Origin: Candidatus Krumholzibacteriota bacterium
Lineage (GTDB): Bacteria; Krumholzibacteriota; Krumholzibacteriia; Krumholzibacteriales; Krumholzibacteriaceae
Direction: 5' to 3'
Assembly (NCBI GenBank): GCA_016932415.1
Contig: JAFGCX010000007.1
Span: 62,001-126,000, forward strand
DNA length: 64,000 nucleotides
Position 1 is the stretch's first letter. Every line of letters starts with the position of its first letter. Below, piece after piece: positions 21,760 to 40,095 of the stretch. The notes below the pieces were generated by a model that had not been told where the DNA came from, ran no database searches, and saw only the letters and a list, made by a program, of their open reading frames with translations. A program made the translations under genes and the position numbers.

Positions 21760-22467
21760 CTAGAAAGCCATACCGACCATCAGGATGAACGCCTTGTTCT
21801 TGCCTTTCTGCTCATCGATCTCTTCGGTCATCTCATCTTCCCACTCGACGACCTCGTACGTCACGTCTCCTCCCCCGATCAACTTTGTCAGCCCGTGCTC
21901 GTACCTGATATCAAATGTCAGGGCGGTCGATCCGATGTCATATTCGAACCCGCCGCCGAGGACAATGGAGAAATCGGTCTTGTTCATCGCCTTATCAGCA
22001 TCGACATTAATATTGAATCTATACCCCGTTCCATGGATCTTCATATCGACTTTATCGCTCATGTTGAATCCGATACTCGGCCCAAAACAGAACCACGGCC
22101 TGAAAGCTCCTTCGAGCGGAATGGAGAACCTGGCGATAAGAGGGATCTCGATATAGTTGAATTTTCCCTCCATGTCGATAGTTCCCTCTTCCTCTTCATA
22201 CTCCGCCTTGAATCCCTTCATGACGAAAAGAAGTTCCGGTTGAAAAATAAAACTCCCCGCGACGGGGTATTTCATATAGACTCCCCCCGCCATCCCCGTT
22301 CTCGCCTTCCCTTTCCAGTTGATATCCTCGTCGAGAAACTTCGGGACATCGGTGATCCCCGCTACCGCCATTCCGCCCTTGACTCCGAAAGAGATCCCTT
22401 CCGCGGCGGCTGCCTGGCTCATCACAGCAATCAGCATAAAAACGACAGGAACAAGAAAACGCTTCAT
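21760..22467 (-). CDS. Outer-membrane beta-barrel protein (PorT-like/OMP_b-brl)
   Basis: 235 residues from the ATG preceded by GGGAGGG. A signal peptide (MKRFLVPVVFMLIAVMSQAAA) is followed by GISFGVKGGMAVAGI, alternating beta-strand segments (SFIFQPELLFVMKG, FNYIEIPLIARFSIP, WFCFGPSIGFNM, VLGGGFEYDIG) and a terminal Phe (FILMVGMAF). This is the small eight-strand outer-membrane barrel type. Function is unknown, probably structural or adhesive. The gene at 22689 encodes a paralogue sharing the same segment order. Confidence 0.85.
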   Translation of the reverse strand: MKRFLVPVVFMLIAVMSQAAAAEGISFGVKGGMAVAGITDVPKFLDEDINWKGKARTGMAGGVYMKYPVAGSFIFQPELLFVMKGFKAEYEEEEGTIDMEGKFNYIEIPLIARFSIPLEGAFRPWFCFGPSIGFNMSDKVDMKIHGTGYRFNINVDADKAMNKTDFSIVLGGGFEYDIGSTALTFDIRYEHGLTKLIGGGDVTYEVVEWEDEMTEEIDEQKGKNKAFILMVGMAF

Positions 22468-22502
22468 GCGGTACCCTCCCATGTGAAATTGATAACGAGC
22501 AG

Positions 22503-22517
22503 CAACTATCCGGCCGC
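22503..22517 (-). promoter_or_regulatory. Weak sigma-54-like promoter
   Basis: On the minus strand CGGCCGGATAGTTGCT has GG and GC elements 10 bp apart, as required, with TTGCT at -12 but CGGCCG rather than TGGCAC at -24. It lies about 35 bp upstream of the outer-membrane barrel gene. Weaker than the two sites at 23842 and 49221. Confidence 0.25.
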
Positions 22518-22621
22518 TATTGTCACATAATGAATATTTCGCTGGCAAGAAAAAAGGCGGCAGAAGGCTTCGAATCGGAGGATGGCGTTTTTGACCCGAA
22601 CTCCGGCGGCCCACCAAAAGA

Positions 22622-22657
22622 AAAGGCGCGGGACCATCTTCCGGCCCCGCGCCTTGT
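22622..22657 (-). terminator. Intrinsic terminator after the second outer-membrane barrel gene
   Basis: On the minus strand AAGGCGCGGGGCCGG folds with GGTCCCGCGCC and is followed by TTTTCTTTT. It stands about 32 bp past the stop at 22689 and differs from the terminator at 21693 by only a few bases. Confidence 0.85.
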
Positions 22658-22688
22658 TCTTACAGATAATATAAATTTGTCTTATGCC

Positions 22689-23276
22689 CTAGAAAGCATA
22701 CCCGACGAGGAACATGATACCTGTATTCTTTACGTCCATTTCCGCATCGGAATCGTCGAGGGTGGTAAGGCCGAGAGCATACCTTACGTCGAAGGTCATG
22801 GCCCCTTCACCCATCGCGTATTCGAACCCGCCGCCAAAGACAAGACCGAAATCCATAGCCTTCACGTCATCAAGATCCTCTTCATCATCTTCATAATATT
22901 CCTTCGCGCTCATATTGAAACCAATATACGGACCGGCGAAGAAACAGGGAGCGAAAGCCCCTTCCATCGGCACGGCGAATTTGGCGAGGATAGGGATATC
23001 GATATAACTGAGTTTGATACCGGCATCGTCATCTATATCGGCTTTCGTGCCCTTCATCATGAAAAGAAGTTCAGGCTGAAGGCTGATCGATTCTGTCATC
23101 ATGTAGTTCATGAATACTCCGCCGCCGAAGCAGAGCTTCATCTTGACGTCATCGATGTCATCCCCGGTAAGATTGGCAAGGTTCACTCCTGCCTTTACGC
23201 CGAAGGTCATTCCCTCGGCAAGAGCGGTACCGCTCAGAAGAGCGATAAGAGCAACAGCAATAATAAGACGCTTCAT
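22689..23276 (-). CDS. Outer-membrane beta-barrel protein, paralogue
   Basis: 195 residues. Signal peptide MKRLIIAVALIALLSGTALA, mature start GMTFGVKAGVNLANL, then strand segments in the same order as the neighbouring barrel (SISLQPELLFMMKG, SYIDIPILAKFAVP, FAGPYIGFNM, LVFGGGFEYAMG) and a terminal Phe (MFLVGYAF). An acidic loop (EYYEDDEEDLDD) near residue 130 may be surface exposed. AAGGAG precedes the ATG. It and the following barrel gene each have their own terminator, so they are likely separate or partly separate transcripts. Confidence 0.85.
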   Translation of the reverse strand: MKRLIIAVALIALLSGTALAEGMTFGVKAGVNLANLTGDDIDDVKMKLCFGGGVFMNYMMTESISLQPELLFMMKGTKADIDDDAGIKLSYIDIPILAKFAVPMEGAFAPCFFAGPYIGFNMSAKEYYEDDEEDLDDVKAMDFGLVFGGGFEYAMGEGAMTFDVRYALGLTTLDDSDAEMDVKNTGIMFLVGYAF

Positions 23277-23938: not shown

Positions 23939-25081
23939 ATGTCGCAATTCATGGAAGTACTCGAATGGTTTGATGAATCGGGAGCCGAGATAGTCCACAG
24001 GATACCGCCTGAAGGATCGGCCGAAATAAAAATGGGCGCTCAGCTTATCGTCAGGGACAATCAGAGCTCCGTCTTCTTCAAAGACGGAAAAGGGCTCGAC
24101 GTCTTCGGCTCGGGGCGCCATACCCTCACTACAAAAAACCTTCCTATACTTACGAAGATCCTCGCGCTGCCATGGGGTTTTAAAAGTCCCTTCAGGGCGG
24201 AAGTCTATTTCGTCAATATGAAGACCTTTCTCAACCAGAAATGGGGAACTAAAGACCCGGTCGCTTTCAAGGACAGCCGGCTCGGCCTCGTCCGGCTGAG
24301 AGCTTTCGGGCTGTATACATTCAAGATCAAGGAACCTGTCCTTTTTATCAACAGCGTCGTTGGTACCCAGGGCGTCTACACCAGTGAAATGATCGGCGAC
24401 TACCTGCGCGATGTCGTGGTAGCGAGGATGAACGATCTTTTCGGTGAAAAACTCGATTCGATCTTCGAACTCCCGCAGTTCTACGACGAGCTGGCGGTCG
24501 AGATCAGGGATCGCCTCGTAAACGATTTTTCAAAATACGGCATGGAGCTGACCGATTTCTTCATCAGTTCGATCACCCCTCCCCCTGAGGTCCAGAAGAT
24601 GATCGACGAGAGAAGCGGACTCGCCGCGGTCGGAAATCTCGACGATTTCTTCAAATTCAAGGCGGCAAAAGCGATGGGCGACGCCGCTTCCAGCGGAGGG
24701 TCGGGCGGAGCAGCCGGAGCGGCGGCGGCGTCCGGCATGGGCGTCGGCGTAGGCGCGGGGCTCGGCATGATGATCCCGGGGATGCTCGCTCAGAATATCC
24801 CGAGCCGGGCGCGAGGGAACACCGCCACCGCCGAGCAGAGATCGGCCTGTCCGAAATGCCACAACGAAGTCTCCGTTGAATCAAGATTCTGTCAGAATTG
24901 CGGGACTCAGCTTGTCGTCATGAACCGGTGCCCCGAGTGCGAGACCGATCTGCCGGCTGAGGCAAAGTTCTGCAGCAGCTGCGGACACAGGCTCGGAACG
25001 GGCCTTGTCTGCCCTCACTGCGGCATGTCGCTTCCGCATGGGACCAGATTCTGCACGAATTGCGGAGAAGGAGTGGAATAG
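23939..25081 (+). CDS. SPFH-domain protein with three C-terminal zinc ribbons (YdjI-like)
   Basis: 380 residues. Residues 1 to about 240 form the SPFH (band 7) domain of the subgroup often labelled virion core protein: [52 protein letters not shown] and [24 protein letters not shown] Gly/Ala-rich hydrophobic stretch (about 258-295) follows, then three zinc ribbons: CPKC/CQNC, CPEC/CSSC and CPHC/CTNC. B. subtilis YdjI has the SPFH part and acts with PspA and YdjG/YdjH in membrane-stress response, so membrane scaffolding is a fair inference. It heads a four-gene operon; the next ATG is 7 bp past its stop. Confidence 0.85.
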
Positions 25082-25088
25082 GAAAGCG

Positions 25089-25793
25089 ATGCTGGTCAGA
25101 TGCAACCTTTGTGGCGGTGAAAACGAGACGCAGCCGGGGCAGGAGATGCTCTTCTGCGCGTATTGCGGATGCTCTCTCGTCGTAGAGGAGACCCGCCTTT
25201 GCGAACATCTGATCCTTCCACACGAAAGAAACGACAAAACAGCTCAGCAGGCGCTTGTATCTTTTCTCAACATGAAAAGCCTGGCCAGAGCGAAAGAAAT
25301 GAAGATCGAGTTCGCCTTCGTTCCCTACCTGATGATCGAGGACGACAGGGAGAAAATGCGAACTCTGCCGGCCCCGGGAGCTCCATCATGGTCTCTGCCA
25401 CTTCCCCATCCACCTTCGGGAAACTATTCCTTCTTTGACGCGGAGCTGGCAGGAAAGGAAAAGACATTTATGCCGAAGGAGCTGCCCGGCGAATCGAGGA
25501 AACTTCTGCATATCCCTCTTTACAGGATCAGGTACAAAGCGGCGGGCGAAGAATACGAAGCTCTCGTCACCGCGGAGAACCTCTTCGTTATAGCTTCGAC
25601 CCTTCCTCCTCCGAGGCCATCTTCCGTCAACACCACCAATATCCTTATGGCGGCGATCCTTTTTACAGCCTTTCTTTTTATCGGCAGGCTGGGCAACGGC
25701 CTTGCCGGCCGGCTCGGATATATAATGCTTGCCGCCACGGCGGGGTTCGCCATCGTTTCCATCCGGGAAAGGATGAAAAGAAGTGAAGAGTAA
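25089..25793 (+). CDS. Zinc-ribbon membrane protein 1 of the SPFH operon
   Basis: 234 residues from ATG 25089, with AGGAAAGCG directly upstream. The N-terminus is a zinc ribbon, CNLCGG then CAYCGC. It is followed by HLILPHERNDKTAQQALVSF and EFAFVPYLMIEDD, a soluble domain shared in outline with the next two proteins. Two membrane segments lie near the C-terminus (about 180-197 and 203-222), ending in a basic tail. I know no assigned function; the architecture recalls the TFIIB-type zinc-ribbon proteins near SPFH genes, such as YdjG. The downstream gene overlaps it by 11 bp. Confidence 0.75.
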   Translation: MLVRCNLCGGENETQPGQEMLFCAYCGCSLVVEETRLCEHLILPHERNDKTAQQALVSFLNMKSLARAKEMKIEFAFVPYLMIEDDREKMRTLPAPGAPSWSLPLPHPPSGNYSFFDAELAGKEKTFMPKELPGESRKLLHIPLYRIRYKAAGEEYEALVTAENLFVIASTLPPPRPSSVNTTNILMAAILFTAFLFIGRLGNGLAGRLGYIMLAATAGFAIVSIRERMKRSEE

Positions 25794-26841
25794 GGTCGAG
25801 GCGCCTATCGTGACACCAGTCTTTGAGAAGGGGAACAGCCCGCGTCCAGCCGGAGCTTCCGACCGATCCGAGACTGTCGGAATAACATGCCCCGACTGCG
25901 GTGGATCGCTCAGGCTCCGCTCCGGGGAGAAAAGCATACGATGCCAGTACTGCGGATCGGCCCTCTACGTCATAAGCCCGAAAGGGGTAAAACAGTTCAT
26001 CCTTCCTCCAGTCATATCTGACGGCAAAGCAAGACTCGCCGCCCTTCATTTCCTATCAGAGAAGACAGGCGGAAAGATAAAAGCCCGTCACGCGTCGATC
26101 CTTGACATTCGGCTGATCAACGTCCCTTTCTGGAGGCTCAAAGGAAGGCTCGCCGGATGGGTATGCGGAGAAAAAATCACGAGAAGACAGATCGAAGTCT
26201 CAGCTCCCGGCCCCAACGGGACCCAGACCCGTTTCAAGACGATCGAGGAGCGTTCCCCTTTCTCTAAACTTATTTATAAAAATGTCGACTGGAGCACTCC
26301 CGCCTGTTCCCTCCGGGACCTCGGTCTCCAGGGAATAGCCCTGAAGGCCCGGCTTCTCGACTGGAACATCTTCGATCATGAATTGAAAAAAACGCTCAAT
26401 ATCGCCCTGCCGATGAAAACTAGAAAAGAGGCGGAAAGAGACGCTTTCCAGCATCTCTCGACCCTCGCCAAACCGGCATCGTCCAACATTAGAAGCAGCA
26501 GATTCGATATTTTCAGCAAGGACTTCTCGATATATTACTACCCGGTGTATATCCTGCGTTACAGGCACGCGGGCAGGATATATTCGATCACCGTGGACGG
26601 GAACGAGGGTCATATTATCAGGGGAGATTATCCCCGGCAGAAAAAAGGAAGCCGCGCTCTGATCTTTTTTATCCCGGCGACGCTCGCTTTTCTGTTCGGA
26701 ACCTGGGCTCCTCTCGTGCCGATAGCGGCGCTGGCCGTCTATATCTGCAATATGGCGGCAGAAGGCAGATTCATCGCGCCGCATCACTGGTTGATGGGCA
26801 ACCTGCAAAAGTGGCTGGGAGGAGGCTCCACCGATGGATAA
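25783..26841 (+). CDS. Zinc-ribbon membrane protein 2 of the SPFH operon
   Basis: 352 residues from a GTG start with AAGGATG upstream; it overlaps the preceding gene. A zinc ribbon at about 36-60 (CPDCGG, CQYCGS) leads into QFILPPVISDGKARLAALHF and RLINVPFWRLKGR, the same layout as its neighbours. The middle region is longer (residues 130-270), with an FSIYYYPVYILRYRH beta segment, and ends in a hydrophobic pair (about 285-325). Like its neighbours it looks like a cytoplasmic domain tethered to the membrane. Function is unknown. Confidence 0.7.
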   Translation: MKSKVEAPIVTPVFEKGNSPRPAGASDRSETVGITCPDCGGSLRLRSGEKSIRCQYCGSALYVISPKGVKQFILPPVISDGKARLAALHFLSEKTGGKIKARHASILDIRLINVPFWRLKGRLAGWVCGEKITRRQIEVSAPGPNGTQTRFKTIEERSPFSKLIYKNVDWSTPACSLRDLGLQGIALKARLLDWNIFDHELKKTLNIALPMKTRKEAERDAFQHLSTLAKPASSNIRSSRFDIFSKDFSIYYYPVYILRYRHAGRIYSITVDGNEGHIIRGDYPRQKKGSRALIFFIPATLAFLFGTWAPLVPIAALAVYICNMAAEGRFIAPHHWLMGNLQKWLGGGSTDG

Positions 26842-27670
26842 CGGATACAGGATCAGGGATCTCAAGTGCGGACATTGCGGCAACCACCTTCCGGTGATGG
26901 GCGAGTACCTTACCTTCCAGTGCGACCGGTGCTACAGATACTGGATAATATCAGGAGACTCCCTCAAACCACTCTCACCCGCGAGAGTCGTCCTGCCGCA
27001 CGATTACGATGGAGAACCTGTCTTTCTTCCCTTCTGGATCATCGAGATAGATCGAGATAAGATGAGAAGAAATATTGAATCAGCCTGCGCTTCCTTGCGG
27101 GAGATATCCTGCGCCATAGTAGAGACCGGGGCAGAGGCGAGTCCGTCGCTCGTCGACGGGATTATTGACGAGCTCACTGGTCGCGGAAAGGAAGCAAGAT
27201 CAAAAGTGATATTCGGCTCTGTCAGCGAAGGGATAAGGACCCCCGAAAGTGGTGAACTCGGATTCATGCTTCGAAAGATCGATCAGATGGAGAGTTTCAA
27301 CATATTCGTGCCGGCCTTTTACGCCGCCAACACGTACGCTTATATAAAGGTCGGAAGGCTCCTGACGAAACAGCAACCGCCGTTCACCGTTTCGACAGCG
27401 CTCGGGCCGGGAAGGCCCCTTATGTGTTCGCTCAGGCCATCGGAAGCGAAGATACTGATGGATTATATATTCATAGCGACCCTTCCCGATTCGATCCGGG
27501 AAAGCGGGGACCTGCCGGGGATGATCCGCCTTGAAGCGTCTTCCCTTCCCAGGCTCGTCGAATTCCCTTTCGAACTCGACGGCCCATCGTATCGATCTCT
27601 CACCGGCAACTTCCATATCGCGAGGCAACTGATAGAGATGGATGGATCCGATAAAGAACTCCGGGTCTAA
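26834..27670 (+). CDS. Zinc-ribbon protein 3 of the SPFH operon (no membrane segment)
   Basis: 278 residues, overlapping the upstream gene by 8 bp; GGGAGGAGG lies just before the ATG. The N-terminal ribbon is CGHCGN then CDRCYR. VVLPHDYDGEPVFLPFWIIEID repeats the pattern of the other two zinc-ribbon proteins, split here by a Gly-Glu insertion. No hydrophobic segment of membrane length is seen, so it may be the soluble member of the set. It ends the operon; a 210 bp gap precedes the flippase gene. Confidence 0.7.
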   Translation: MDNGYRIRDLKCGHCGNHLPVMGEYLTFQCDRCYRYWIISGDSLKPLSPARVVLPHDYDGEPVFLPFWIIEIDRDKMRRNIESACASLREISCAIVETGAEASPSLVDGIIDELTGRGKEARSKVIFGSVSEGIRTPESGELGFMLRKIDQMESFNIFVPAFYAANTYAYIKVGRLLTKQQPPFTVSTALGPGRPLMCSLRPSEAKILMDYIFIATLPDSIRESGDLPGMIRLEASSLPRLVEFPFELDGPSYRSLTGNFHIARQLIEMDGSDKELRV

Positions 27671-27880: not shown

Positions 27881-29428
27881 TTGACTGACGCTACAGTTGT
27901 CGATAAACGGGAAAAACACTCCCCGGAAGACAGGCATGAAATAAAAGAGCACGCGATACCGTCGTTGGAAGAGTCCGGTGAAGGTTCAAAGGTCGAATCT
28001 TCCCCCGTCATCGGGAGAGTCCTGAGAAATACCCTGTCGCTTACCGGAGCGAACGCGGTATCTTCCGTCCTCGCTTTTTTTGCCACCGCCTATCTCGCCC
28101 GGGTACTCGCCGCGGAAGGATTCGGAATACTCGGTTTCGCCCAGGCGGCGATAACATATTTCACTCTTTTTATAAATATGGGGTTTACTCATTTCGGCGT
28201 CAGGGAGATCGCCAGAAACCCTTCCAGCACTGAAAAATACGTCAACAATATAGTGACGATCAGGATCATACTCGCCACAGTCGCCTACGCCCTTCTGCTC
28301 CTTTTCACCTCGATGCTTTCCAAGCCGATGACGGTAAAACTCGTGATGCTTGTACTGGGACTGAAACTCTACTCAATGACATTCCATCTCAGGTGGGTCT
28401 TCCAGGGCAGGGAGAAGATGGGCTGGATAGCTTTGAGCAGGATAGCCCCCCAGCTGCTCTATGCGGTATCGGTCTGGGTCCTGATAAAGGAAAGCTCCCA
28501 GATCATCCGTGTGCCGGCGCTACAGGTCGCCTCCGTGACGGCAGGCAGCCTTATCCTGCTGGCCAGTTACATCCATGGAGGTCACCGCATCCGATTGAGT
28601 TTCGACCTGGCCTTCTGGAAAGACGCTTTCAGACAGAGCCTGCCGATGGCGGCAAGCTTCATACTCAGCCAGATCTACGTCAACTTCGACATGATAATGC
28701 TCGGATTCACCCACGGCGAGGAGACTGTCGGATATTACCATGCCGCGTACAAGATCATTTTCACGATCAATCTTTTCGGCACTTACTATTTCTTCAGCCT
28801 CTTTCCCAACCTTTCGCGCGTATTTTCATCATCGGTAAAACAGCTCGGCCTTCTTCTATCCAAGAGCATGCGGCACATGATAATCCTTCTTGTCCCGATA
28901 TCCGCCGGAGGGATGGTACTGGCCGGACCGATGATCCGGACGGCATTCGGAAACGGCTATGCGGCAAGCATCCTCCCCCTGCAGATCCTCATCTGGAGCA
29001 TCGCGATAATCAATATCCGCCAGCATTTCAGTAACACCCTGATCGCTTCGAACAGGCAGAAGCGCTACCTCCTCTGCGCCTCTCTCGGAGCTGTGACGAA
29101 TATTATCCTTAACCTTATATTCATTCCGGCCTTCGGGATGAGCGCGGCGGCTGCGACGACCCTCTTTTCGGAACTTGTCGTCATGCTGACGATGTACCGG
29201 GAGACGAGGAAGGTCATATCGATAAATATACTCCCGATGCTGTGGAAGCCTGTTGCCGCTTCGACGGGGATGGTCGCCGTATTGATGATAATCCCGGGAT
29301 GGAACGTCTTTCTCAGAACAGGATTCGGGATCGCAGTATATTTTCCGATCCTCTTTGTCACGAGAGGAATATCAGTTAAAGAGATCAAGGCGATGGCCAC
29401 TCATCTGCGAGAATGGAGAAGAAGATGA
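27881..29428 (+). CDS. Polysaccharide flippase (Wzx/MOP superfamily)
   Basis: 515 residues starting at TTG 27881 with AAAAAGGAG ten bases upstream. A charged 45-residue N-terminal tail precedes VIGRVLRNTLSLTGANAVSSVLAF, the start of the transport fold with about 12-14 membrane segments. LARVLAAEGFGILGFAQAAITYF and FTHFGVREIARNP are typical of Wzx/RfbX flippases, which move undecaprenyl-linked glycan units across the inner membrane. It is the first gene of a surface-glycan cluster that continues to 35.95 kb. Confidence 0.9.
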   Translation: MTDATVVDKREKHSPEDRHEIKEHAIPSLEESGEGSKVESSPVIGRVLRNTLSLTGANAVSSVLAFFATAYLARVLAAEGFGILGFAQAAITYFTLFINMGFTHFGVREIARNPSSTEKYVNNIVTIRIILATVAYALLLLFTSMLSKPMTVKLVMLVLGLKLYSMTFHLRWVFQGREKMGWIALSRIAPQLLYAVSVWVLIKESSQIIRVPALQVASVTAGSLILLASYIHGGHRIRLSFDLAFWKDAFRQSLPMAASFILSQIYVNFDMIMLGFTHGEETVGYYHAAYKIIFTINLFGTYYFFSLFPNLSRVFSSSVKQLGLLLSKSMRHMIILLVPISAGGMVLAGPMIRTAFGNGYAASILPLQILIWSIAIINIRQHFSNTLIASNRQKRYLLCASLGAVTNIILNLIFIPAFGMSAAAATTLFSELVVMLTMYRETRKVISINILPMLWKPVAASTGMVAVLMIIPGWNVFLRTGFGIAVYFPILFVTRGISVKEIKAMATHLREWRRR

Positions 29429-31182
29429 TGCTGACAAAAACAGGCGTCAGCCTCACCGGGCCGGCAGACCTTTTTACGCCGACCCACCTCTGCCAGCAAC
29501 CGAAATACCGCGTCGCGGGAGGCCGCTGGACCAGCAGCTTCAATAAAGCGGCGATGGAGGCAAGTGGCGACCTTCACTGGGACACCGCGGCGATTCTCTC
29601 ATCGATAGCTTTCCACTACCCGGTCGGCGACCTGACGATGGTCAGGGAAGTATCGAGAAATCCATGGCTCTCGGAAACAGGCGGGGCTGATGACCCGATC
29701 CTTTCGGAGATTCCGCCTCACGGCTGGCGCGCCGGGACTCCCCCGTCGATCGCCGAAGACCTCGGGGTATTGTTATACGAAGAAGGCAGGCGGGTATGCA
29801 CCGGTAGAAATGAGATATATATCCTCCTTTCAGGTGGGCTCGACAGCAGGATAGTCGCCGGCACTCTCCGGCACCTGTGGAAAGACGGCGTGATAGATAA
29901 TAGACCGGTCGGACTTACATGGGGACTGGAGAATTCAAGAGACGCGGTATACGCTAAAGCAGTGGCCGACATCCTCGATTTCGACTGGATCAATATTCCG
30001 GTAACTCCCGGGACACTTTTTGACAATATCGATCTCTCCGCCGCGAACGGGGCTCTTGTCCCTCCGCCAGATCTGCACCGCGTCTCATGGTTCTCATCGT
30101 TGAGCCGGGACGCCATCGTCCTTGCCGGAAGTTACGGCGATTCGATAGGCCGCGCCGAGTTCAGCGGCAATCACCTGCTGGAACTCGAAGCTCATTCGCC
30201 GTTAAATCTTTTCGGGCTTGTAAGGCCAGATCTCTGCGCTTCAGCGGCGGACAGGATCACCGGACAGCTTGAAAATCTCTCATCAAGGGCTCCCGATGAA
30301 CCTGAATATGCCAGGTTCGAACATGAGCAGCAGGCTCATTACATGAGGGGGATGATACACCAGGCGATGAGCCTTATCGGAAAACACTGCTCGATCTACC
30401 AGTTCTTTACCGATCCTTCGGTATATTCATATATATGGTCGATCCATCCATCGATGCGAGGCGACAGGGTGTACGGATATCTCCTTGAATCGCTGGACAG
30501 CCGTCTGGCCCGGCTTCCATGGGCAAGAACGAACAGGGCGCTGAGGGGAAGGACTGAAGGCGCGGAAAGAGGTCTGGCAGTTGATTTTCACCGTTACTGC
30601 GAATGGATAAGCGGCCCGCTATATAAAAAGATCTCCGAGATCGTCGATCCGGACTGGTTCGAAGGGACCGGCATATTCGTCAGGGAGAAGGTCGAAGCGC
30701 TCGGGAAAAGAATCGCTGCCGGCGGATCCAGTTGCCACCAGGACAGTTTCAAACCTTATAACGTCTGGCTGTGGCTGGCGAGCCTGAGACGAATGGAGGA
30801 GATCCAGCGCTGTAATGGAAAATCGATAATCCCGGGACAATTCGCCATAAGACCATGCCCTCCCGAACTCGAGGACCATCCGGCAGACAAAAGGTCTCTC
30901 CTCAGAAAGCTTGCTTCAAAAAGCGAACTGGCCAGGAATCTGAAGAGAAAAGCAAGGAGAGCTCTCCTTAAGCGAAAAGCGTTTAAAAACTTTCCTCCCG
31001 CTGGAATTGGTCGTGAGACCCCCATGCGGGACCAATCGCGTCTTGAAGAGCCTGGAGGAAGCCGGCCTGATGGACCGGCCGGATTCCAAAGACAAAAGAC
31101 TAAAGTCCCAGCGGGGATATCCGATCAGAAATGCGGGGACCCTGAAGCGGTGGCAGGGAAGTCACGGCATATTAGAAGATGA
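29425..31182 (+). CDS. Asparagine-synthetase-like protein without a glutamine amidotransferase domain
   Basis: About 585 residues; ATG 29425 has GGAGAAG just upstream, while an in-frame ATG at 29413 also exists. The frame overlaps the flippase stop. YILLSGGLDSRIVAGTLRHLW (split here at its SGGLDS core) is the pyrophosphatase-loop motif of the AsnB synthetase domain, preceded by a degenerate domain that lacks the N-terminal catalytic Cys of class II amidotransferases. It may form an amide or related bond with an amine other than glutamine-derived ammonia. The last 60 residues are low complexity (Pro, Gly, Arg). A complete AsnB follows 44 bp downstream. Confidence 0.75.
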   Translation: MMLTKTGVSLTGPADLFTPTHLCQQPKYRVAGGRWTSSFNKAAMEASGDLHWDTAAILSSIAFHYPVGDLTMVREVSRNPWLSETGGADDPILSEIPPHGWRAGTPPSIAEDLGVLLYEEGRRVCTGRNEIYILLSGGLDSRIVAGTLRHLWKDGVIDNRPVGLTWGLENSRDAVYAKAVADILDFDWINIPVTPGTLFDNIDLSAANGALVPPPDLHRVSWFSSLSRDAIVLAGSYGDSIGRAEFSGNHLLELEAHSPLNLFGLVRPDLCASAADRITGQLENLSSRAPDEPEYARFEHEQQAHYMRGMIHQAMSLIGKHCSIYQFFTDPSVYSYIWSIHPSMRGDRVYGYLLESLDSRLARLPWARTNRALRGRTEGAERGLAVDFHRYCEWISGPLYKKISEIVDPDWFEGTGIFVREKVEALGKRIAAGGSSCHQDSFKPYNVWLWLASLRRMEEIQRCNGKSIIPGQFAIRPCPPELEDHPADKRSLLRKLASKSELARNLKRKARRALLKRKAFKNFPPAGIGRETPMRDQSRLEEPGGSRPDGPAGFQRQKTKVPAGISDQKCGDPEAVAGKSRHIRR

Positions 31183-31226
31183 TCGATAGCGTAAACAAAG
31201 AGACTGAAACGGAGGAGTGACCTCGA

Positions 31227-33209
31227 ATGTGCGGAATAACAGGGATCTTTCACCTTGATCCAAGAGAAAATGCCGATCCCGCCCTGCTCGAAAGAATGAC
31301 ATCTCTTCTCGAGCACAGGGGGCCCGATGACGAAGGGTTTTTTTACGAAGGCAGGATCGCGCTGGGCCACAGAAGGCTGTCCATCATAGATCTCGATACG
31401 GGGCACCAGCCGATGTCGGACAGCGAAAAGACGATCTGGATCGTCTTTAATGGAGAAATCTACAATTTTAAAAAGATCCGACGCGAGCTGTCGCGGAAAG
31501 GCCATTCTTTCAGGACCCGCTCCGACACCGAAGTGATCATCGAAGCGTATAAGGAATGGGGGACTGAATTCGTCGAAAGATTCAACGGGATGTTCGCCCT
31601 CGCGCTATGGGACAAGGCAAATAGCCGGCTCGTCATCGCCAGGGACAGGCTTGGAATCAAGCCTCTCTACACTTCAATAGTCGACGGGACTCTCCTTTTC
31701 GCCTCTGAGATGAAATCGATCCTCGCGCACCCGCGTTTCCGGCGCGAAGTCGATCCGGAAAGCATATCAAGCTATCTCGGCTACAGGTGCGTACCCGGAG
31801 AAAAGACCCTTTTCACAGGCATCGAAAAACTCTCTCCCGGACATCTGCTGATAGTTGAGAACGGATATATGTCCAAGGTCCGGTACTGGAACCTTCCCGC
31901 TCCGGGCAAAGGCAGGGACAGGGGAGAAGAATATTACATCAGCAAGATCCGTTCGCTGCTGAAGCGTTCGGTTAAAAGCCGCATGATAAGCGATGTGCCT
32001 CTCGGCGCCTATCTCAGCGGCGGCCTTGACAGTTCGATAATCGTCTCGATAATGGCCCGTCTCAGCGCGAAACCGGTAAAGACATACACGATCGGGTTCG
32101 AGGACGAGGGTTTTAACGAACTCAAATATGCCAGAGCGGTCGCCAACGCGTTCCGGACCGATCATACAGAGATAATCGTCGATGACCGTGAATATATCGA
32201 TCTTATCCCCAGGCTGATCAGGATGAAGGATGCCCCGCTCGCCGTCGCCAATGAAGTGCCGCTCCATATCATGTCGAGAGAGCTGCGCAAGGATATAACT
32301 GTCGTTCTTTCGGGAGAAGGCGCCGACGAACTCTTCGCCGGATACGGCAGGATATTCAGGTCGCCGTTCGACTACGAGAGGGCACGGTTCCTCGAGGATG
32401 ACACGACGATCCACGCTGAATACCGGGAGAGACTACTTTCGAAACTGCAGGATATTTACGGTGTGAGAAGTTTCGTCGGGGAACTCGATCACTTTATCAA
32501 CAAGTACCACTGGCTCAGCAGGCTTGACAAGGAAGCTCTCCTTTCGAGCCGGATAATAGACAAAATAAACGGAGATTCAAGAGTGGTCGACTTTTTTGCC
32601 CGTCAGTTCAAGGAAATGGAAGGAGCATCACACTATGAAAAACTCCTTTATATCTTTCAAAAAACGCATCTCGAAAACCTTCTGATGCGGGTCGACATGA
32701 CGACGATGGCGACCTCTGTCGAAGCAAGGGTGCCGTTCGTCGATCATGAATTGATAGAGTTCGTCTTCTCGATGCCTTTTGAATACAAACTAAGATGGAA
32801 AAGTGACGTGCACAGGCTGATGGCCGCCTTTCTGCCGAGTGACGAGATCAGCGAGATCTACGATACGCCAAAATATATTCTCAAGGCATCATACCGCGAC
32901 GATCTTCCCGAAGAAATAACAGACCGCAGGAAAATGGGGTTTCCCGTGCCCCTTGACAGATGGACGGGAGGAAGATACCAGGAGTTCATGAAAGAGATCC
33001 TTCTTGATGAAAGGACCAGGCGGCGCGGGATCTTCAACCTCGACGCGATTGAAAAATGGCTGGCCGGAGACAGGACCAGCAATCATTCTTCATCCCTGAA
33101 ACTCTGGATGCTTATGAACCTCGAGATCTGGTTCAGGGAATATATCGATCAGGTTCCGGTGAACGAGACACCTGACATTGGAAAAATCCACCTCGTTCAG
33201 AACGCTTAA
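31227..33209 (+). CDS. asnB: Glutamine-hydrolysing asparagine synthetase family protein
   Basis: 660 residues. Cys2 (MCGITGIF) is the glutaminase nucleophile, with LEHRGPDDEG, LGHRRLSIIDL and FNGEIYN completing the amidotransferase domain, and GAYLSGGLDSSIIVSIMA (about 264) giving the ATP-pyrophosphatase motif. The enzyme transfers amide nitrogen from glutamine to an aspartyl or similar carboxylate. Placed within a glycan cluster, it may amidate a sugar acid or an amino-acid substituent, as such paralogues do in some O-antigen loci, rather than make free asparagine. GGAGGAG lies upstream of the ATG. Confidence 0.9.
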   Translation: MCGITGIFHLDPRENADPALLERMTSLLEHRGPDDEGFFYEGRIALGHRRLSIIDLDTGHQPMSDSEKTIWIVFNGEIYNFKKIRRELSRKGHSFRTRSDTEVIIEAYKEWGTEFVERFNGMFALALWDKANSRLVIARDRLGIKPLYTSIVDGTLLFASEMKSILAHPRFRREVDPESISSYLGYRCVPGEKTLFTGIEKLSPGHLLIVENGYMSKVRYWNLPAPGKGRDRGEEYYISKIRSLLKRSVKSRMISDVPLGAYLSGGLDSSIIVSIMARLSAKPVKTYTIGFEDEGFNELKYARAVANAFRTDHTEIIVDDREYIDLIPRLIRMKDAPLAVANEVPLHIMSRELRKDITVVLSGEGADELFAGYGRIFRSPFDYERARFLEDDTTIHAEYRERLLSKLQDIYGVRSFVGELDHFINKYHWLSRLDKEALLSSRIIDKINGDSRVVDFFARQFKEMEGASHYEKLLYIFQKTHLENLLMRVDMTTMATSVEARVPFVDHELIEFVFSMPFEYKLRWKSDVHRLMAAFLPSDEISEIYDTPKYILKASYRDDLPEEITDRRKMGFPVPLDRWTGGRYQEFMKEILLDERTRRRGIFNLDAIEKWLAGDRTSNHSSSLKLWMLMNLEIWFREYIDQVPVNETPDIGKIHLVQNA

Positions 33210-33253
33210 GGCAGGATATCGGCCTGTCATGACAGGGAAGGAATGAAGGAAAG

Positions 33254-33997
33254 ATGAAAGTGATCATACTCGCCGCGGGAAAGGGAGAGCGCCTCTATCC
33301 ACTGACGAAGAACAGTCCGAAATCCCTTCTCGAACTCGGAGGCGGCAAAACGGTACTCGAAAGCCAGCTCGATCATATCGTCGAAGCGGGAATACACGAT
33401 GTCACTATCGTGACCGGGTACAAGACCGAACAGATCGAAGCAAAGATAATCGACCGCACTGATCCGGAGATCTCGATATGTTATAACCCGTTTTTCGCCA
33501 CAAGCAACAATCTGATATCCGCCTGGATGGCGGTGCGTCAGACTAACGAGAACTTCGTCCTCGTCAACGGGGATGACGTCTTCCGCCCGCATGTCCTTTC
33601 CGGGCTGATCGAATCGCGCCATGATATAACGATGGTGATCGACCGGAAGGAAAAGTACGATTCGGACGACATGAAAGTCGTCACTTCCGGCGGGCTCGTC
33701 CACAAAGTAAGCAAACAGATCGGAGAAGAGGAAGCGAACGGAGAATCGATCGGGATGATCATGTTCAGGGGAAAGGGGAGGGGGATAATCCTCGATACTC
33801 TCGAGGAGATGGCTCGAAAAGAAGAAAACAAACAGATATTCTATCTTGCCGCCCTCCAGAATATCATGGACAAGGGATACCCGGTCCATTATCACGAATG
33901 TTCCCGCGAAGACTGGGCGGAGATCGATTTCCACTCGGATCTGTCATTCATCCGCAAACATATCGAGAATTTCGCGGCTGATATAGTCAATATATAA
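33254..33997 (+). CDS. LicC/IPCT-like CTP-dependent cytidylyltransferase
   Basis: 247 residues of a nucleotidyltransferase fold. MKVIILAAGKGERLYPLT is the NTP-binding loop, with KSLLELGG next. NPFFATSNNLISAW and VLVNGDDVF near residues 78 and 105, and WAEIDFHSDL near the end, resemble phosphocholine and inositol-1-phosphate cytidylyltransferases more than glucose-1-phosphate enzymes. It should make a CDP-activated alcohol or polyol. The CDP-alcohol transferase gene follows after 13 bp, which supports the pair acting in sequence. Confidence 0.85.
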   Translation: MKVIILAAGKGERLYPLTKNSPKSLLELGGGKTVLESQLDHIVEAGIHDVTIVTGYKTEQIEAKIIDRTDPEISICYNPFFATSNNLISAWMAVRQTNENFVLVNGDDVFRPHVLSGLIESRHDITMVIDRKEKYDSDDMKVVTSGGLVHKVSKQIGEEEANGESIGMIMFRGKGRGIILDTLEEMARKEENKQIFYLAALQNIMDKGYPVHYHECSREDWAEIDFHSDLSFIRKHIENFAADIVNI

Positions 33998-34010
33998 GAA
34001 AGGGACGGCG

Positions 34011-34772
34011 ATGGAATCGATAGCCCGGCTGAAAGAGATATGCAGAAGGGATAATTTCGATGACAACCAGCGTACGATGGGCTCGGCGGCGAGGATATCG
34101 ATCTATTTCACGCGGCTTTTTCTCATGATGAAGATGTCCGCCAACCAGGTCACATGGCTCTTCACCTTTCTTGGAACTGTCGGAGCTCTCTGCTTTCTTT
34201 CCCCTGGAGTCGCCGGCGCGGCGGCGGGATACATACTTTACCGCCTGCACGTGATAGTCGACGTCTCCGACGGGGAAGTGGCTAGGTACCGCGATACTTT
34301 CAGCCCCTTCGGCGCCTACCTCGACTACCTCACTCATTACTTCGTGTATAATATCGTTCTTTTCGCCATACCATTCAGGTTCTTCCTCGATACTGGAAAA
34401 GCCTGGGGACTTGTCACCGGCGCCGTACTGATGCTTTCGATCACCCTGAACCGCGCCTCGGTCGACTGCTGGTTCCGCGCCAACTTCGGAAAGCGCGACC
34501 GCGGCGATATCGAGGAAGGCGGCCGGAACGCTGGCAGAAGCGCTCTCGCGCCGATCGTGAAGTGGTCGGTACTGGCGGCGAGCAGGGCATCTGGATTACA
34601 GACCTTTCTCGACCTCTACCTCATCTCGATGATCGTCGAATCGATCACCGGAGTCGAGTCAAGGAGCTGGCTGATCCCCTCTTACGCTCTGATCCTTTTT
34701 TCCTTCACGATAGCAAGGATCGCGTACACGATTTTCAGGGGACAGATACCGAGAAGGGCGACATACTACTGA
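34011..34772 (+). CDS. CDP-alcohol phosphatidyltransferase family protein with an altered fourth metal-site residue
   Basis: 253 residues with about six membrane segments. The family motif D-x2-D-G-x2-A-R-x8-G-x3-D-x3-D reads D84, D87, G88, A91, R92, G101, D105 and then His109 where the last Asp is expected (DVSDGEVARYR then GAYLDYLTH). The fourth Asp is thought to act as catalytic base, so the change is noteworthy, although some divergent homologues may use His. It should join a CDP-activated head group to a lipid or polyol phosphate, using the product of the upstream cytidylyltransferase. The next gene starts within its stop codon (TGATG). Confidence 0.82.
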   Translation: MESIARLKEICRRDNFDDNQRTMGSAARISIYFTRLFLMMKMSANQVTWLFTFLGTVGALCFLSPGVAGAAAGYILYRLHVIVDVSDGEVARYRDTFSPFGAYLDYLTHYFVYNIVLFAIPFRFFLDTGKAWGLVTGAVLMLSITLNRASVDCWFRANFGKRDRGDIEEGGRNAGRSALAPIVKWSVLAASRASGLQTFLDLYLISMIVESITGVESRSWLIPSYALILFSFTIARIAYTIFRGQIPRRATYY

Positions 34773-35950
34773 TGCGAACTCTCGAAGAAAAAAGAACCGC
34801 GCGGGCGATTTCTCCGGCGGAAAAAGAGGATCTTTCATATCTGCGGGTCTGCAGGATCGCCTCATATCCTACGCACGCCTCTCCGGGAACCGGACTGCCC
34901 GGGTATTACCTCTCTTCTGAGACAGGCGCTCCGACCCTCTTCCTGACGAGAAAAGTCGAAGACGCTCTCCCCGTACCGGACAACACCGATCTGATGATGA
35001 TAGATTATGACAGCCCCGCTTTCGGCGAAAAGCCGGACCTTATCACGGCGGCGGCCAAGATAAGGGGACTGGTGAGATTCTTTGCCGCCTCCACCTCTCA
35101 GATGCGCCGTTTCGGGCCTGATATCGTTCACATACACTCCCCCCTCTACCTTATGCACGCCATCTGGGCGAAACTTTTCCTTCGGGCGAAGATATGCATG
35201 ACCTTCCATGGATCGGACCTGCTGAGGATAAAAAGATCCCCCCTGCTGAAACTGACGATCAGTAAAACAGTCGACGCCGTATTCCACGTGTCATCGACGA
35301 TGAGGGAAGCAATCGCCGGATTTCTTCCGGAAAGAATCATCCACTATGCTCCCAACGGAGTCGATACGGAAAGATTCAGAGATGTCGGGCTGGAGAGGAA
35401 GGATCAGATCGTCGCCCTCGGCAACCTTCGATGGCAGAAGGGATATAAATACCTTGTCGAAGCTTTTTCGATGCTTGGAGAAAGAGGTTACAGGCTCGTC
35501 ATCATCGGCGAGGGCCCTCTAAGGAAGGAGCTGCAGGACCAGATCGACCGTCTCGGGCTGACGGCACGGATCTCGCTCGCTGGCAAAAAAGGGTATGATG
35601 AGATCCTGAGAATATTGAACGAAAGCAGGATATACGTGATGTCCTCCATATCAGAAGGTTTCCCAAAGGCGCTTCTCGAAGGTATCGCGACGGGACTGCC
35701 CGCCGTGACGACCGACGTCGGAAGCTGCCAGGAAGTCACCGATGGGATCGGAATATGCGTTCCCGCCGCCGACGCCGGGGCGCTTGGCGAAGCTCTTGAA
35801 AAAATGATTTCCGACGCCCGGCTCAGGGAGCGCTGCGCCTCGATGGCGAGGCATAAAGCGGAGCAGTACAGCTGGGAGAGATCGTGCCGGATCGTCAAAG
35901 AGGTCTACCGGACTCTTCTGCCCCCTTCTTCTCAAGGATCCCGCGAATGA
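34772..35950 (+). CDS. Glycosyltransferase family 4
   Basis: 392 residues from ATG 34772, whose A is the last base of the upstream TGA, so translation is coupled. DIVHIHSPLYLMHAIWA and FHGSDLL belong to the acceptor half; IVALGNLRWQKGYKYLVEA, IGEGPLRKEL and SSISEGFPKALLEGIATG (a complete EX7E motif) to the donor half. It ends the flippase-to-GT4 cluster. Its last 56 bases overlap the end of the convergent beta-lactamase-fold gene. Confidence 0.9.
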   Translation: MRTLEEKRTARAISPAEKEDLSYLRVCRIASYPTHASPGTGLPGYYLSSETGAPTLFLTRKVEDALPVPDNTDLMMIDYDSPAFGEKPDLITAAAKIRGLVRFFAASTSQMRRFGPDIVHIHSPLYLMHAIWAKLFLRAKICMTFHGSDLLRIKRSPLLKLTISKTVDAVFHVSSTMREAIAGFLPERIIHYAPNGVDTERFRDVGLERKDQIVALGNLRWQKGYKYLVEAFSMLGERGYRLVIIGEGPLRKELQDQIDRLGLTARISLAGKKGYDEILRILNESRIYVMSSISEGFPKALLEGIATGLPAVTTDVGSCQEVTDGIGICVPAADAGALGEALEKMISDARLRERCASMARHKAEQYSWERSCRIVKEVYRTLLPPSSQGSRE

Positions 35951-37073
35951 TCCTGACCGCTTCATCGGTCAGGACTCTGCCTTTCACGGCGTTTCTCCGG
36001 GTTACAGCCCCTGCCACGGCAAGATCGATCTCCGGAAAATAGAAAGTGAATGTGTTCCAGAACCCCGTATGTCCCCATCCCGTGATCCCGTCGACTTCGA
36101 TACTCCATATTCCCGCCCTGTACGTTCCCTGGTCGGGAGCGATCACCATCGACAGCATAGTATCGAGAGTCGATTTTTGCTTGTAGACCTGCCCGCTGAA
36201 CAGCGCCTTTTCGAAGAGGGCCAGATCCCTCGCCGTAGAGATCAGTCCTCCGCCGCCGTAGAGATCGATAGATGGATCGACGTCATATGAATCGGCGTCC
36301 CCGAAGTACTGGTGAGCTATAGCGCCCACGGCGGCGGGGACCGCTTCGACAGATTCGGTCCAGGTATGATCGAGCCCGAGCCTGTCGAATCCGACCAGGT
36401 CGCGCATCGCCCCAGCCATAGTTTTTCCGGTGACTTCCTCGAGGATCTTTCCAAGGAGGATATACCCCGTATCAGAATAGTGCCACCTCTCGCCCGGTCC
36501 GCCGTATGGAGCGCCAAGTTCGATCGCAAGCTTCAACTGATCGAGCCTGCTCCACTTTCTCCCCGGATCGTCAAGGATCATCTCTGTATACTCCTCACCG
36601 GCGTGTTCGTACATACCGCTCGTGTGTGTAAGCAGATGCCTGATCCTCATCATATCCGGCCGGTATCCGTCGGCGACAAGCATATCGACATAAAGCGGCG
36701 GCAGGTAGTGGCTGATCGGATCGTCGAGCCTGATCTTCCCTTCCTCGAAGAGCCGGAGGATCGAAACGGCGATAAATGTCTTTGTATTGCTGGCAATCCG
36801 GAAGGCGTGATCCACCGTCAGCGGCGCTCCCCCGGTCATCCCTTCAAATCCAGCCGCCGAGCCATAGGAAAGACAAAGGCCCGGCTGATCGATATATATC
36901 GATATCCCCGGGATAGTGCTGTCTCTTGCGAGCACGCCGGCAAGAAGGGTGTCGATACCGGCCTCAGCCTCTACCGTTGCAAAGGTACGCTCACACTCCC
37001 GCTCCCCTCCCTTTGAGCAGGAGATGAAGAAAGCCATGCCGAAAAGCAGAAATGTCCTGATGATAATTTTCAT
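35895..37073 (-). CDS. Serine beta-lactamase-fold lipoprotein (class C-like hydrolase)
   Basis: 392 residues from the ATG preceded by GGAGGGATCG; a longer frame extends to 37115. The N-terminus is a lipoprotein signal with lipobox FFISC. SNTK in HAFRIASNTKTFIAV is the active-site SxxK, YSDTGYILLG supplies the second Tyr motif, and GWGHTGFW the third (HTG replacing KTG). Such proteins include esterases and D-aminopeptidases as well as lactamases, so resistance should not be assumed. It is membrane-anchored, probably in the periplasm. Confidence 0.88.
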   Translation of the reverse strand: MKIIIRTFLLFGMAFFISCSKGGERECERTFATVEAEAGIDTLLAGVLARDSTIPGISIYIDQPGLCLSYGSAAGFEGMTGGAPLTVDHAFRIASNTKTFIAVSILRLFEEGKIRLDDPISHYLPPLYVDMLVADGYRPDMMRIRHLLTHTSGMYEHAGEEYTEMILDDPGRKWSRLDQLKLAIELGAPYGGPGERWHYSDTGYILLGKILEEVTGKTMAGAMRDLVGFDRLGLDHTWTESVEAVPAAVGAIAHQYFGDADSYDVDPSIDLYGGGGLISTARDLALFEKALFSGQVYKQKSTLDTMLSMVIAPDQGTYRAGIWSIEVDGITGWGHTGFWNTFTFYFPEIDLAVAGAVTRRNAVKGRVLTDEAVRIIRGILEKKGAEESGRPL

Positions 37074-37360
37074 CGATCCCTCCATCGAGAAGCCCGGGAG
37101 TATTTCACGCCACATCCTTGATCGGTAATATTTACCGGCAATCAGTATAGGACAGTTTCACGGGGTGACGCAAAGCTCTCTTTACGCGGTGGCCGGCATT
37201 TTTCTCTTGTTTCACGCGCAAAGAAGAGGAACAAGGCTTGAAAAATATCGTAAAAGATGTAAAGTACTACCGACCTTCGGCCTCAGCATTCGATTCTGGG
37301 GCCGTATGCCGGAGTCAAAACCTGCCAGGCGGCAAGCCGCCCGGGGAAAAGGAGGAGGAA

Positions 37361-37981: not shown

Positions 37982-38005
37982 CCCAGACCTCTGATGGAGC
38001 GGGAA

Positions 38006-38767
38006 ATGAGAACCGCCACCTTTATAATGATAATGCTGCTGAGTCTGCCGGGGCTGCCATGCGCGGTCCTGGCAGATTCCTTATCGACAGGACCCTCCGT
38101 CGCCGGGGCGGTGAAAGATACGCTGCCGGAAAAGACCCACGGCGAACCGGAGATCGAAGTCTCCCTCTTCCGGGCGCTGAACACCGCCGCTCAGAACCGG
38201 TTTTTCGATCTTGTCATGCCGGTCATCACCGATTTCAGCAAATGGAGGATAGTACTGCTGGTCGTATGGGCCTTCCTTGTACTTGCCGGCGGGCCAAAGG
38301 GACGTTGGGCCGCTTTCATGATGATACCCCTTATCGCAGCTTCCGACCAGCTCTGCGCCTCACTGATAAAACCCGCCGTAGCCCGGGCCCGCCCCTGCCA
38401 GGTCCTTGGTGGAGTGCATTTCTGGCATGGAACGGCGGGGTGGATAACGACTCCGCTGCAGGTGACGAAAAGTTATAAATCATCCTTTTCGTTCCCTTCC
38501 AACCACGCTGCAAATATGACAGCGGCGATGCTTTTTCTCGGCCTCGTCTACAGAAAATGGATAATTCCGCTTCTTCTGATAGCGCTGGCAGTATCCTACT
38601 CACGAGTTTACATAGGAGTCCACTGGACCTCGGACGTGTCGGCGGGGATCGCGATCGGCGCCCTTCTCGCTCTGGCCGCCTGGAAAGCTTTCAGATATCT
38701 CGGATTCGACTCGGATGAAAGGAGATGGAGATGGAAATCCTTACAGGGAAAAATATCAGGACATTGA
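38006..38767 (+). CDS. PAP2-family membrane phosphatase
   Basis: 253 residues; ATG 38006 has GGAGCGGGAA upstream. A signal-like segment (about 1-25) is followed by five hydrophobic segments. The acid phosphatase motifs are KPAVARARP (KX6RP), FPSNHA (PSGH type, Asn for Gly) and SRVYIGVHWTSD (SRX5HX3D). It probably removes phosphate from a lipid carrier such as undecaprenyl pyrophosphate or from a phospholipid at the periplasmic face. The next gene overlaps its 3' end by 37 bp. Confidence 0.85.
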   Translation: MRTATFIMIMLLSLPGLPCAVLADSLSTGPSVAGAVKDTLPEKTHGEPEIEVSLFRALNTAAQNRFFDLVMPVITDFSKWRIVLLVVWAFLVLAGGPKGRWAAFMMIPLIAASDQLCASLIKPAVARARPCQVLGGVHFWHGTAGWITTPLQVTKSYKSSFSFPSNHAANMTAAMLFLGLVYRKWIIPLLLIALAVSYSRVYIGVHWTSDVSAGIAIGALLALAAWKAFRYLGFDSDERRWRWKSLQGKISGH

Positions 38768-40095
38768 TAATCGTCGCCATTTCCCTCGCCGCCGGATTCG
38801 CCGTCAGCCGATTCACTCCGGAAGGCCTCAGCCCTGCCGGCCAGGTCACTCTCGGGATATTCACGGTCGCGGCTATTCTATGGGTACTCGAACCTTTCCC
38901 TCTCTATGTTACATCCTTCATCATCGTATTTCTTGAAGTGGTCTTCCTCGGTAGAAGCTCGGGACCGCTCGGTTTCTCCGGAAACCAGTACGCGATATTC
39001 CTGACACCTTTTTTTAACCCGGTCGTAGTCCTTTTCCTCGGCGGGTTCGCCATGGCCAACGCCGTAAAACGGTATAAACTCGACGAGAGGATCTCAAGGT
39101 CGATCCTTCGCCGCGTCGGCAGAAAGCCGAATACAGTTCTTCTCGGGATGATGGTGACGACGGCTTTTCTCTCGATGTGGATCTCGAACACGGCGACAAC
39201 CGCCCTTATGCTGGCAGTTGCGATACCGGTGATGAGGCCGTTCCCGGCCGACGAGCCGTTCAGAAAAGCGATCATACTGGGAATCCCGTTCGCGGCGAAT
39301 ATCGGCGGAATGGGAACGCCGATCGGCACTCCTCCCAACGCCATCGCGATGGGAATACTCGACAACATGGGTATGGGGATAACATTCACCGGATGGATGA
39401 TCCGCGGCCTCCCCCTCGTCCTCATTCTCCTCGCTGCTTGCTGGCTGATCCTCTGCAGGATGTTTCCAACAGCGATAAAGACGATCGAGATAAAAATGCC
39501 TGAGAAAGAAGAGGTTCTCGGCGTTAAATCAAAATTCATACTGTATACATTCGCCGCTGTGATCATCCTATGGCTTACTTCGAAATTCCACGGTATTCCC
39601 TCGTCGATCGTCGCGCTGATACCGGTGATCGTATTTTTCAGCCTCCGAATCCTCGAGGAAGAGGACCTGAAGGACCTGGGCTGGAACATACTCTTCATAA
39701 TAGGAGGCGGAATGAGCCTCGGCGTGGCGATGCAGGAAAGCGGCCTGAGCAGATGGATGGTCAGCCTGATACCGTTCGGCGGAATAGGACTCTTTCCCGT
39801 GCTTCTCCTGTTCGCCCTCTCCGCCGCGGCGATGACCACCTTCATCTCGAACAGCGCCACGGCAAACCTGCTTGTCCCAATCGCCGTGGGAATAACTGTT
39901 GTACCGGCGCAGACGAGCGCCGTCGTAATAGCCCTCGCCGCCTCGGCTGCCATGATTCTACCGATAAGCACTCCTCCCAACGCGATCGCTTACGGCTCCG
40001 GCCAGGTCCAAGTCAGGGAGATGGCAAGGAGCGGATCGATAATAACTCTGGTTTCCGTTCTGGCAGTCACTCTTTACCTCTTTCTGCTCTTCTGA
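38731..40095 (+). CDS. DASS/SLC13-family sodium-coupled anion transporter
   Basis: 454 residues; ATG 38731 is six bases after AAAGGAG. Two repeated halves each carry the substrate-site signature, SNTATTALM with GTPIGTPPNAIAMG in the first and SNSATANLLVP with ISTPPNAIAYGSG in the second. These define the divalent-anion sodium symporter family, which imports dicarboxylates or sulfate. Start and 3' end of the PAP2 gene overlap. Confidence 0.92.
   Translation: MEILTGKNIRTLIIVAISLAAGFAVSRFTPEGLSPAGQVTLGIFTVAAILWVLEPFPLYVTSFIIVFLEVVFLGRSSGPLGFSGNQYAIFLTPFFNPVVVLFLGGFAMANAVKRYKLDERISRSILRRVGRKPNTVLLGMMVTTAFLSMWISNTATTALMLAVAIPVMRPFPADEPFRKAIILGIPFAANIGGMGTPIGTPPNAIAMGILDNMGMGITFTGWMIRGLPLVLILLAACWLILCRMFPTAIKTIEIKMPEKEEVLGVKSKFILYTFAAVIILWLTSKFHGIPSSIVALIPVIVFFSLRILEEEDLKDLGWNILFIIGGGMSLGVAMQESGLSRWMVSLIPFGGIGLFPVLLLFALSAAAMTTFISNSATANLLVPIAVGITVVPAQTSAVVIALAASAAMILPISTPPNAIAYGSGQVQVREMARSGSIITLVSVLAVTLYLFLLF

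Follow-up and report, generated by a model that had tools for sequence, protein, structure and literature searches.

A conserved SPFH operon with three zinc-ribbon partners in Krumholzibacteriota: a probable variant of the SPFH-YdjG module

Four genes, here called A, B, C and D, lie head to tail on the + strand in a MAG of Krumholzibacteriota and probably constitute a lineage-specific form of the SPFH-YdjG module, in which B and C would anchor A, D would be a cytosolic adaptor, and the whole would work independently of PspA, most likely in the service of envelope or lipid-carrier metabolism. This reading draws on the YdjI-type character of A, the paralogy of B and C, the homology of C to YdjG, a fixed gene order and the PspA-free state of the carriers. 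It draws also on the adjacency of SPFH and YdjG-like genes in several phyla and in two genomes of the same class, and on the occurrence of strong Band_7_1 matches only in families that possess C.

The operon and its products

The window is a stretch of 64,000 nucleotides from a 3.1-Mb genome that is 95% complete. Gene A (23939..25081, + strand) follows a strong ribosome-binding site (aggagg) and encodes an SPFH (Band_7_1) protein of 380 aa (Pfam PF13421, E 3e-63), ending in three zinc ribbons (24848..25063, +; residues 304-321, 331-348 and 358-375) of CxxC...CxxC pattern with DZR/Zn_Ribbon_1 matches. Gene B (25089..25793, +; 234 aa) combines a ribbon (25101..25166, +; C5, C8, C23, C26) with a YdjG-like core and two C-terminal hydrophobic segments; gene C (25783..26841, +; 352 aa, GTG start) has a ribbon (25888..25953, +; C36, C39, C54, C57), a YdjG-like core and one or more C-terminal membrane segments; and gene D (26834..27670, +; 278 aa) has a ribbon (26867..26932, +; C12, C15, C30, C33), an LPFW motif and a core of its own. 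The ribbon cysteines of B, C and D are invariant. A and B are 7 bp apart, B and C overlap by 11 bp and C and D by 8 bp; with the conserved gene order described below, this bears out the tight operon of four that the initial annotation had proposed. Promoter and terminator scans of the locus yielded matches at chance level. Upstream, on the - strand (21760-23276), are two tandem ORFs resembling outer-membrane beta-barrel paralogues, homologues of which precede A in several relatives as well.

Zinc ribbons had been assigned to all four proteins, three at the C-terminus of A and one at the N-terminus of each partner, and orthologues agree: a single N-terminal four-cysteine ribbon is found in 22/22 B, 27/28 C and 22/22 D sequences, while A has three ribbons in 15/22 and fewer in the others. 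The VPxW/VPYL segment reported for the small proteins is likewise a real, conserved motif (VPYL/VPFW/LPFW) in the orthologue alignments of B, C and D; P79 is invariant in B, and P115-F116-W117 in C and P66-F67-W68 in D are conserved. The expectation of two proteins with membrane pairs and one soluble protein stands in part. Hydropathy of the window copy gives B two C-terminal segments (residues 180-198 and 205-223), so that its pair is firm, and gives D none, as anticipated. C has a single clear segment (residues 301-319) and a second helix there in a low-confidence model only, which makes its pair plausible. AlphaFold2 models of C and D, each made from two sequences (the window protein and that of one relative), were set aside (mean pLDDT 46 and 30), and a PepSY-like fold for the core of C, suggested by its helix-strand pattern and a DGxxG motif, was left out because too few PepSY sequences were available for a profile.

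Outside the ribbon, B, C and D are protein families beyond the coverage of Pfam and NCBIfam: none of the three matched a family above cut-off in these collections, sub-threshold matches being mostly to ribbon families, and a search of solved structures for relatives returned ribbon matches and chance hits only. The resemblance of the ribbon to those of Rpo12 and TFIIB, and the DNA binding suggested for the YdjG ribbon (PMC9239133), might indicate that the ribbons bind nucleic acid and that the operon encodes a regulator of transcription or translation tethered to the membrane. We consider this improbable, since four-cysteine ribbons match many unrelated families equally weakly, the cores and membrane ends are as conserved as the ribbons, and the SPFH partner bears double ribbons of the protein type.

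A still more distant prospect is an envelope-directed defence or antimicrobial-resistance system, an idea that gains something from the response of SPFH/PSP-type systems to envelope stress (PMC8581546, PMC11237479). Searches of PHROGs and PADLOC gave weak matches only, in the ribbon region or at the SPFH level, with no PADLOC match outside the ribbon region; viral contigs contained no relatives of C or D, and plasmids none of D. Furthermore, the gene order is fixed and vertically conserved in the order, unlike that of mobile defence islands, and we regard a defensive role as very unlikely.

Relationship to YdjG and to known SPFH systems

The three small proteins had been taken for paralogues, and profile comparisons uphold this for two of them. 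As judged by hhalign, B and C are paralogues across most of both proteins (P 1e-20), and they remain so when the ribbons are excluded (P 9e-8; score 52, against at most 16 for shuffled and at most 23 for reversed controls). D shares only its ribbon and LPFW motif with B, C and YdjG. In the paralogy comparison its ribbon-less core scored 24-25, against 21-23 for reversed profiles; compared with YdjG the core scored 25.7 (14.6 shuffled, 14.8 reversed), in an alignment confined to 16 columns at the LPFW motif and with a probability of 6%.

A likeness of the locus to YdjG/YdjI of Bacillus had also been suggested, and at profile level it extends directly to C. Against a YdjG-type profile, which was built from plasmid-encoded database homologues and not from Bacillus YdjG itself, C aligns with P 9e-15 as a whole protein and P 4e-6 without ribbons (score 45, controls at most 20). 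B matches YdjG clearly only with its ribbon, and its ribbon-less form has no direct match (P 0.007). On these profiles C is a distant homologue of YdjG-type proteins, and B is related to YdjG through C.

The comparison with the PspA-YdjG-YdjH-YdjI system of Bacillus subtilis rests on A, an SPFH protein of YdjI type that ends in zinc ribbons, and on a ribbon-bearing membrane partner of YdjG type, which is present here as C and, through C, as B. Unlike that system, the operon begins with its SPFH gene, has a pair of YdjG-like paralogues, each with a single ribbon, where Bacillus has one protein with two, and adds the soluble protein D and an SPFH clade of its own. The initial annotation had remarked that PspA and YdjH are missing from the locus, and they are missing from the whole genome too: profile searches of the window's genome found neither PspA nor TPM (YdjH), with positive controls in Bacillus and E. 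coli. Although this genome is 95% complete, the absence of PspA is repeated over all operon carriers in a profile search of 80 phylum genomes, only two of which have PspA, neither of them a carrier. With PspA in no carrier and TPM absent from the window's genome, the operon is a variant of the SPFH-YdjG module and not a PspA-YdjGHI system; its gene content rules out membership of the latter as defined, although it may still work in a similar way.

The SPFH-YdjG module is known as a kind, since a survey of PSP systems lists the arrangement seen in Bacillus among several contexts of PspA (PMC11237479). YdjG-like genes lie directly 3' of SPFH genes in Vibrio, Comamonas, Paracoccus and Tsukamurella, and in Enterococcus with a TPM gene as well; the pair is annotated as 'SPFH domain-containing protein' and 'TFIIB-type zinc ribbon-containing protein'. 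Such pairs without adjacent PspA (for example on Vibrio, Comamonas, Paracoccus and Tsukamurella plasmids) share with A-B-C the succession of an SPFH gene and a YdjG-like gene, here the YdjG homologue C, and C aligns with the second ribbon, the core and the NGxTGxV-type end of their partner. They differ in having a single partner with two N-terminal ribbons, in place of B, C and D with one each in B and C, and in SPFH proteins of another clade. In the SPFH tree, which is small and midpoint-rooted, the A proteins of the phylum cluster together (support 99/98), separately from the SPFH proteins that are paired with YdjG-like genes. The suggestion of a distinct complex is therefore sound as regards distinctness, the operon having its own SPFH clade and its own set of partners. 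The literature examined contained neither this A-B-C-D partner set nor, in a search, any paper linking SPFH proteins either with Krumholzibacteriota or with the designation 'TFIIB-type zinc ribbon'.

Flotillins (FloA/FloT) and NfeD-linked SPFH proteins share the SPFH domain with A, which differs in its Band_7_1 type, its ribbons and its ribbon-bearing partners; flotillins moreover bind the membrane unaided (PMC8581546). Other SPFH proteins of A's kind have different partners, such as DUF4178 proteins and polyamine aminopropyltransferase. On plasmids of Gemmatirosa and Novosphingobium (L127:5926-9336 and L129:4980-9849), DUF4178 or zinc-ribbon ORFs lie 3' of the SPFH genes, and the L129 neighbourhood also contains DUF350 and polyamine aminopropyltransferase genes. 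A further type of partner accompanies a second SPFH gene in genome G013 (L147:591-4376), where an ORF 5' of the gene has a zinc ribbon as well as a SHOCT-like start.

Conservation and gene neighbourhood

The distribution of B-C-D was followed through genomes of the phylum. C is present in 24/25 genomes of the order, sharing 39-81% identity with the window protein; it is weakly matched in 4/4 genomes of f6, another family of the class. Wherever contigs suffice, the order A-B-C-D is without exception within the order, with 17 four-gene loci besides the window (A is cut by a contig end in one); the other loci of the order are interrupted by contig ends. Among the f6 genomes, G039 has A-B-C-D and G028 has A-B-C up to a contig end, while in G032 and G035 B-C-D stand with no A next to them, and A is hence not strictly tied to B-C-D. 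D extends to f6 at low similarity, and strong Band_7_1 matches are confined to the C-bearing families f1, f2 and f6. The gene set is thus conserved across the order and beyond, as would not be expected by chance, and the doubt whether it recurs in other genomes is settled in its favour. Canonical SPFH-YdjG pairs occur at L145:2988-5244 in G032 and at about 2568-4711 of L144 in G035, the same genomes in which A is not beside B-C-D.

Downstream of D in the window are a PAP2-superfamily phosphatase gene (37994..38767, +), the sole PAP2 match of the genome, and a gene for a DASS-type (sodium:sulfate/citrate) symporter (38725..40095, +). Both are conserved neighbours: 14/25 order genomes carry a PAP2 gene about 0.3 to 11 kb downstream of D, sharing its strand and contig, and DASS homologues stand beside PAP2 in L033, L034, L037, L039 and L042. 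In the window the distance from the operon is about 10.7 kb, with a polysaccharide cluster in between (27881-37115; genes for a flippase, asparagine synthases, a CDP-alcohol phosphotransferase-like protein and glycosyltransferases). PAP2 and DASS directly follow D in relatives, and the cluster looks like an insertion, with a similar arrangement in L035. G019, G020 and G022 have no PAP2 linkage; in the other unlinked genomes of the order, contigs end. Upstream of the operon in f6, a uppP (BacA) gene is found on the same strand in 4/4 genomes, adjoining a trpA-like gene in two of them as judged by eye.

PAP2 and UppP are unrelated enzyme families, both of which can act in the recycling of undecaprenyl phosphate. 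The neighbourhood invites a sharper form of our preferred reading, in which the scaffold would be given over entirely to recycling undecaprenyl phosphate or making lipid-linked glycans, with A-B-C-D gathering or regulating the neighbouring PAP2 or UppP. The linkage of PAP2 in the order, the position of the only PAP2 match of the window's genome and the recurrence of uppP in f6 point this way, as does the misplaced cell-wall synthesis that follows loss of ydjG in Bacillus (PMC8581546). Against this, genomes of one lineage are not independent observations, which reduces the linkages to about two events; three genomes lack the PAP2 linkage; PAP2 is a putative lipid phosphatase assigned by superfamily match; and uppP in f6 sits with trpA, where its location may be chance. 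So specific a role is possible, but we think it rather unlikely.

A module working without PspA

In the module reading that we prefer, A would form an SPFH scaffold, as its family suggests, and B and C, as diverged YdjG-like paralogues, would bring it to the membrane by their C-terminal anchors. The model is Bacillus, where YdjI has no membrane anchor and its membrane foci require YdjG and YdjH, and where deletion of ydjG or ydjH leads to misplaced cell-wall synthesis under alkali stress, an effect not seen so strongly on deletion of ydjI or pspA (PMC8581546); both the dependence of the foci and the cell-wall effect favour this reading. YdjI is the only SPFH protein known to be recruited to the membrane by a YdjG-type partner (PMC8581546). 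The ribbons, one per partner and as many as three on A, may be structural modules for protein docking, and A to D may form a complex. D would be a cytosolic adaptor, the weakest step of the scheme. Since the genome has no PspA, the scaffold would act without it, most likely by maintaining a membrane suited to envelope or lipid-carrier metabolism, to which the operon is putatively linked. Several observations count against the scheme: YdjG has two ribbons but B and C only one each, ribbon-less B fails to match YdjG directly, no relation between the core of D and the other proteins could be detected, and A is not adjacent in G032 and G035. A more committed version, in which duplicated YdjG-type anchors and a cytosolic adaptor complete an SPFH scaffold that is PspA-independent, dedicated to undecaprenyl phosphate recycling and coupled to PAP2 in one lineage and to the unrelated phosphatase UppP in another, is a speculation that we would not expect to hold.

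Work on the YdjG/YdjI module in Bacillus has treated it alongside PspA, despite a strong cell-wall phenotype that is specific to ydjG as against ydjI and pspA (PMC8581546). The retention of an SPFH-YdjG-like set in a lineage lacking PspA suggests an independent function for the module. The linkage to PAP2 in the order and the proximity of uppP in f6 are new here, and these phosphatase neighbours offer a concrete guess at what that function may be.
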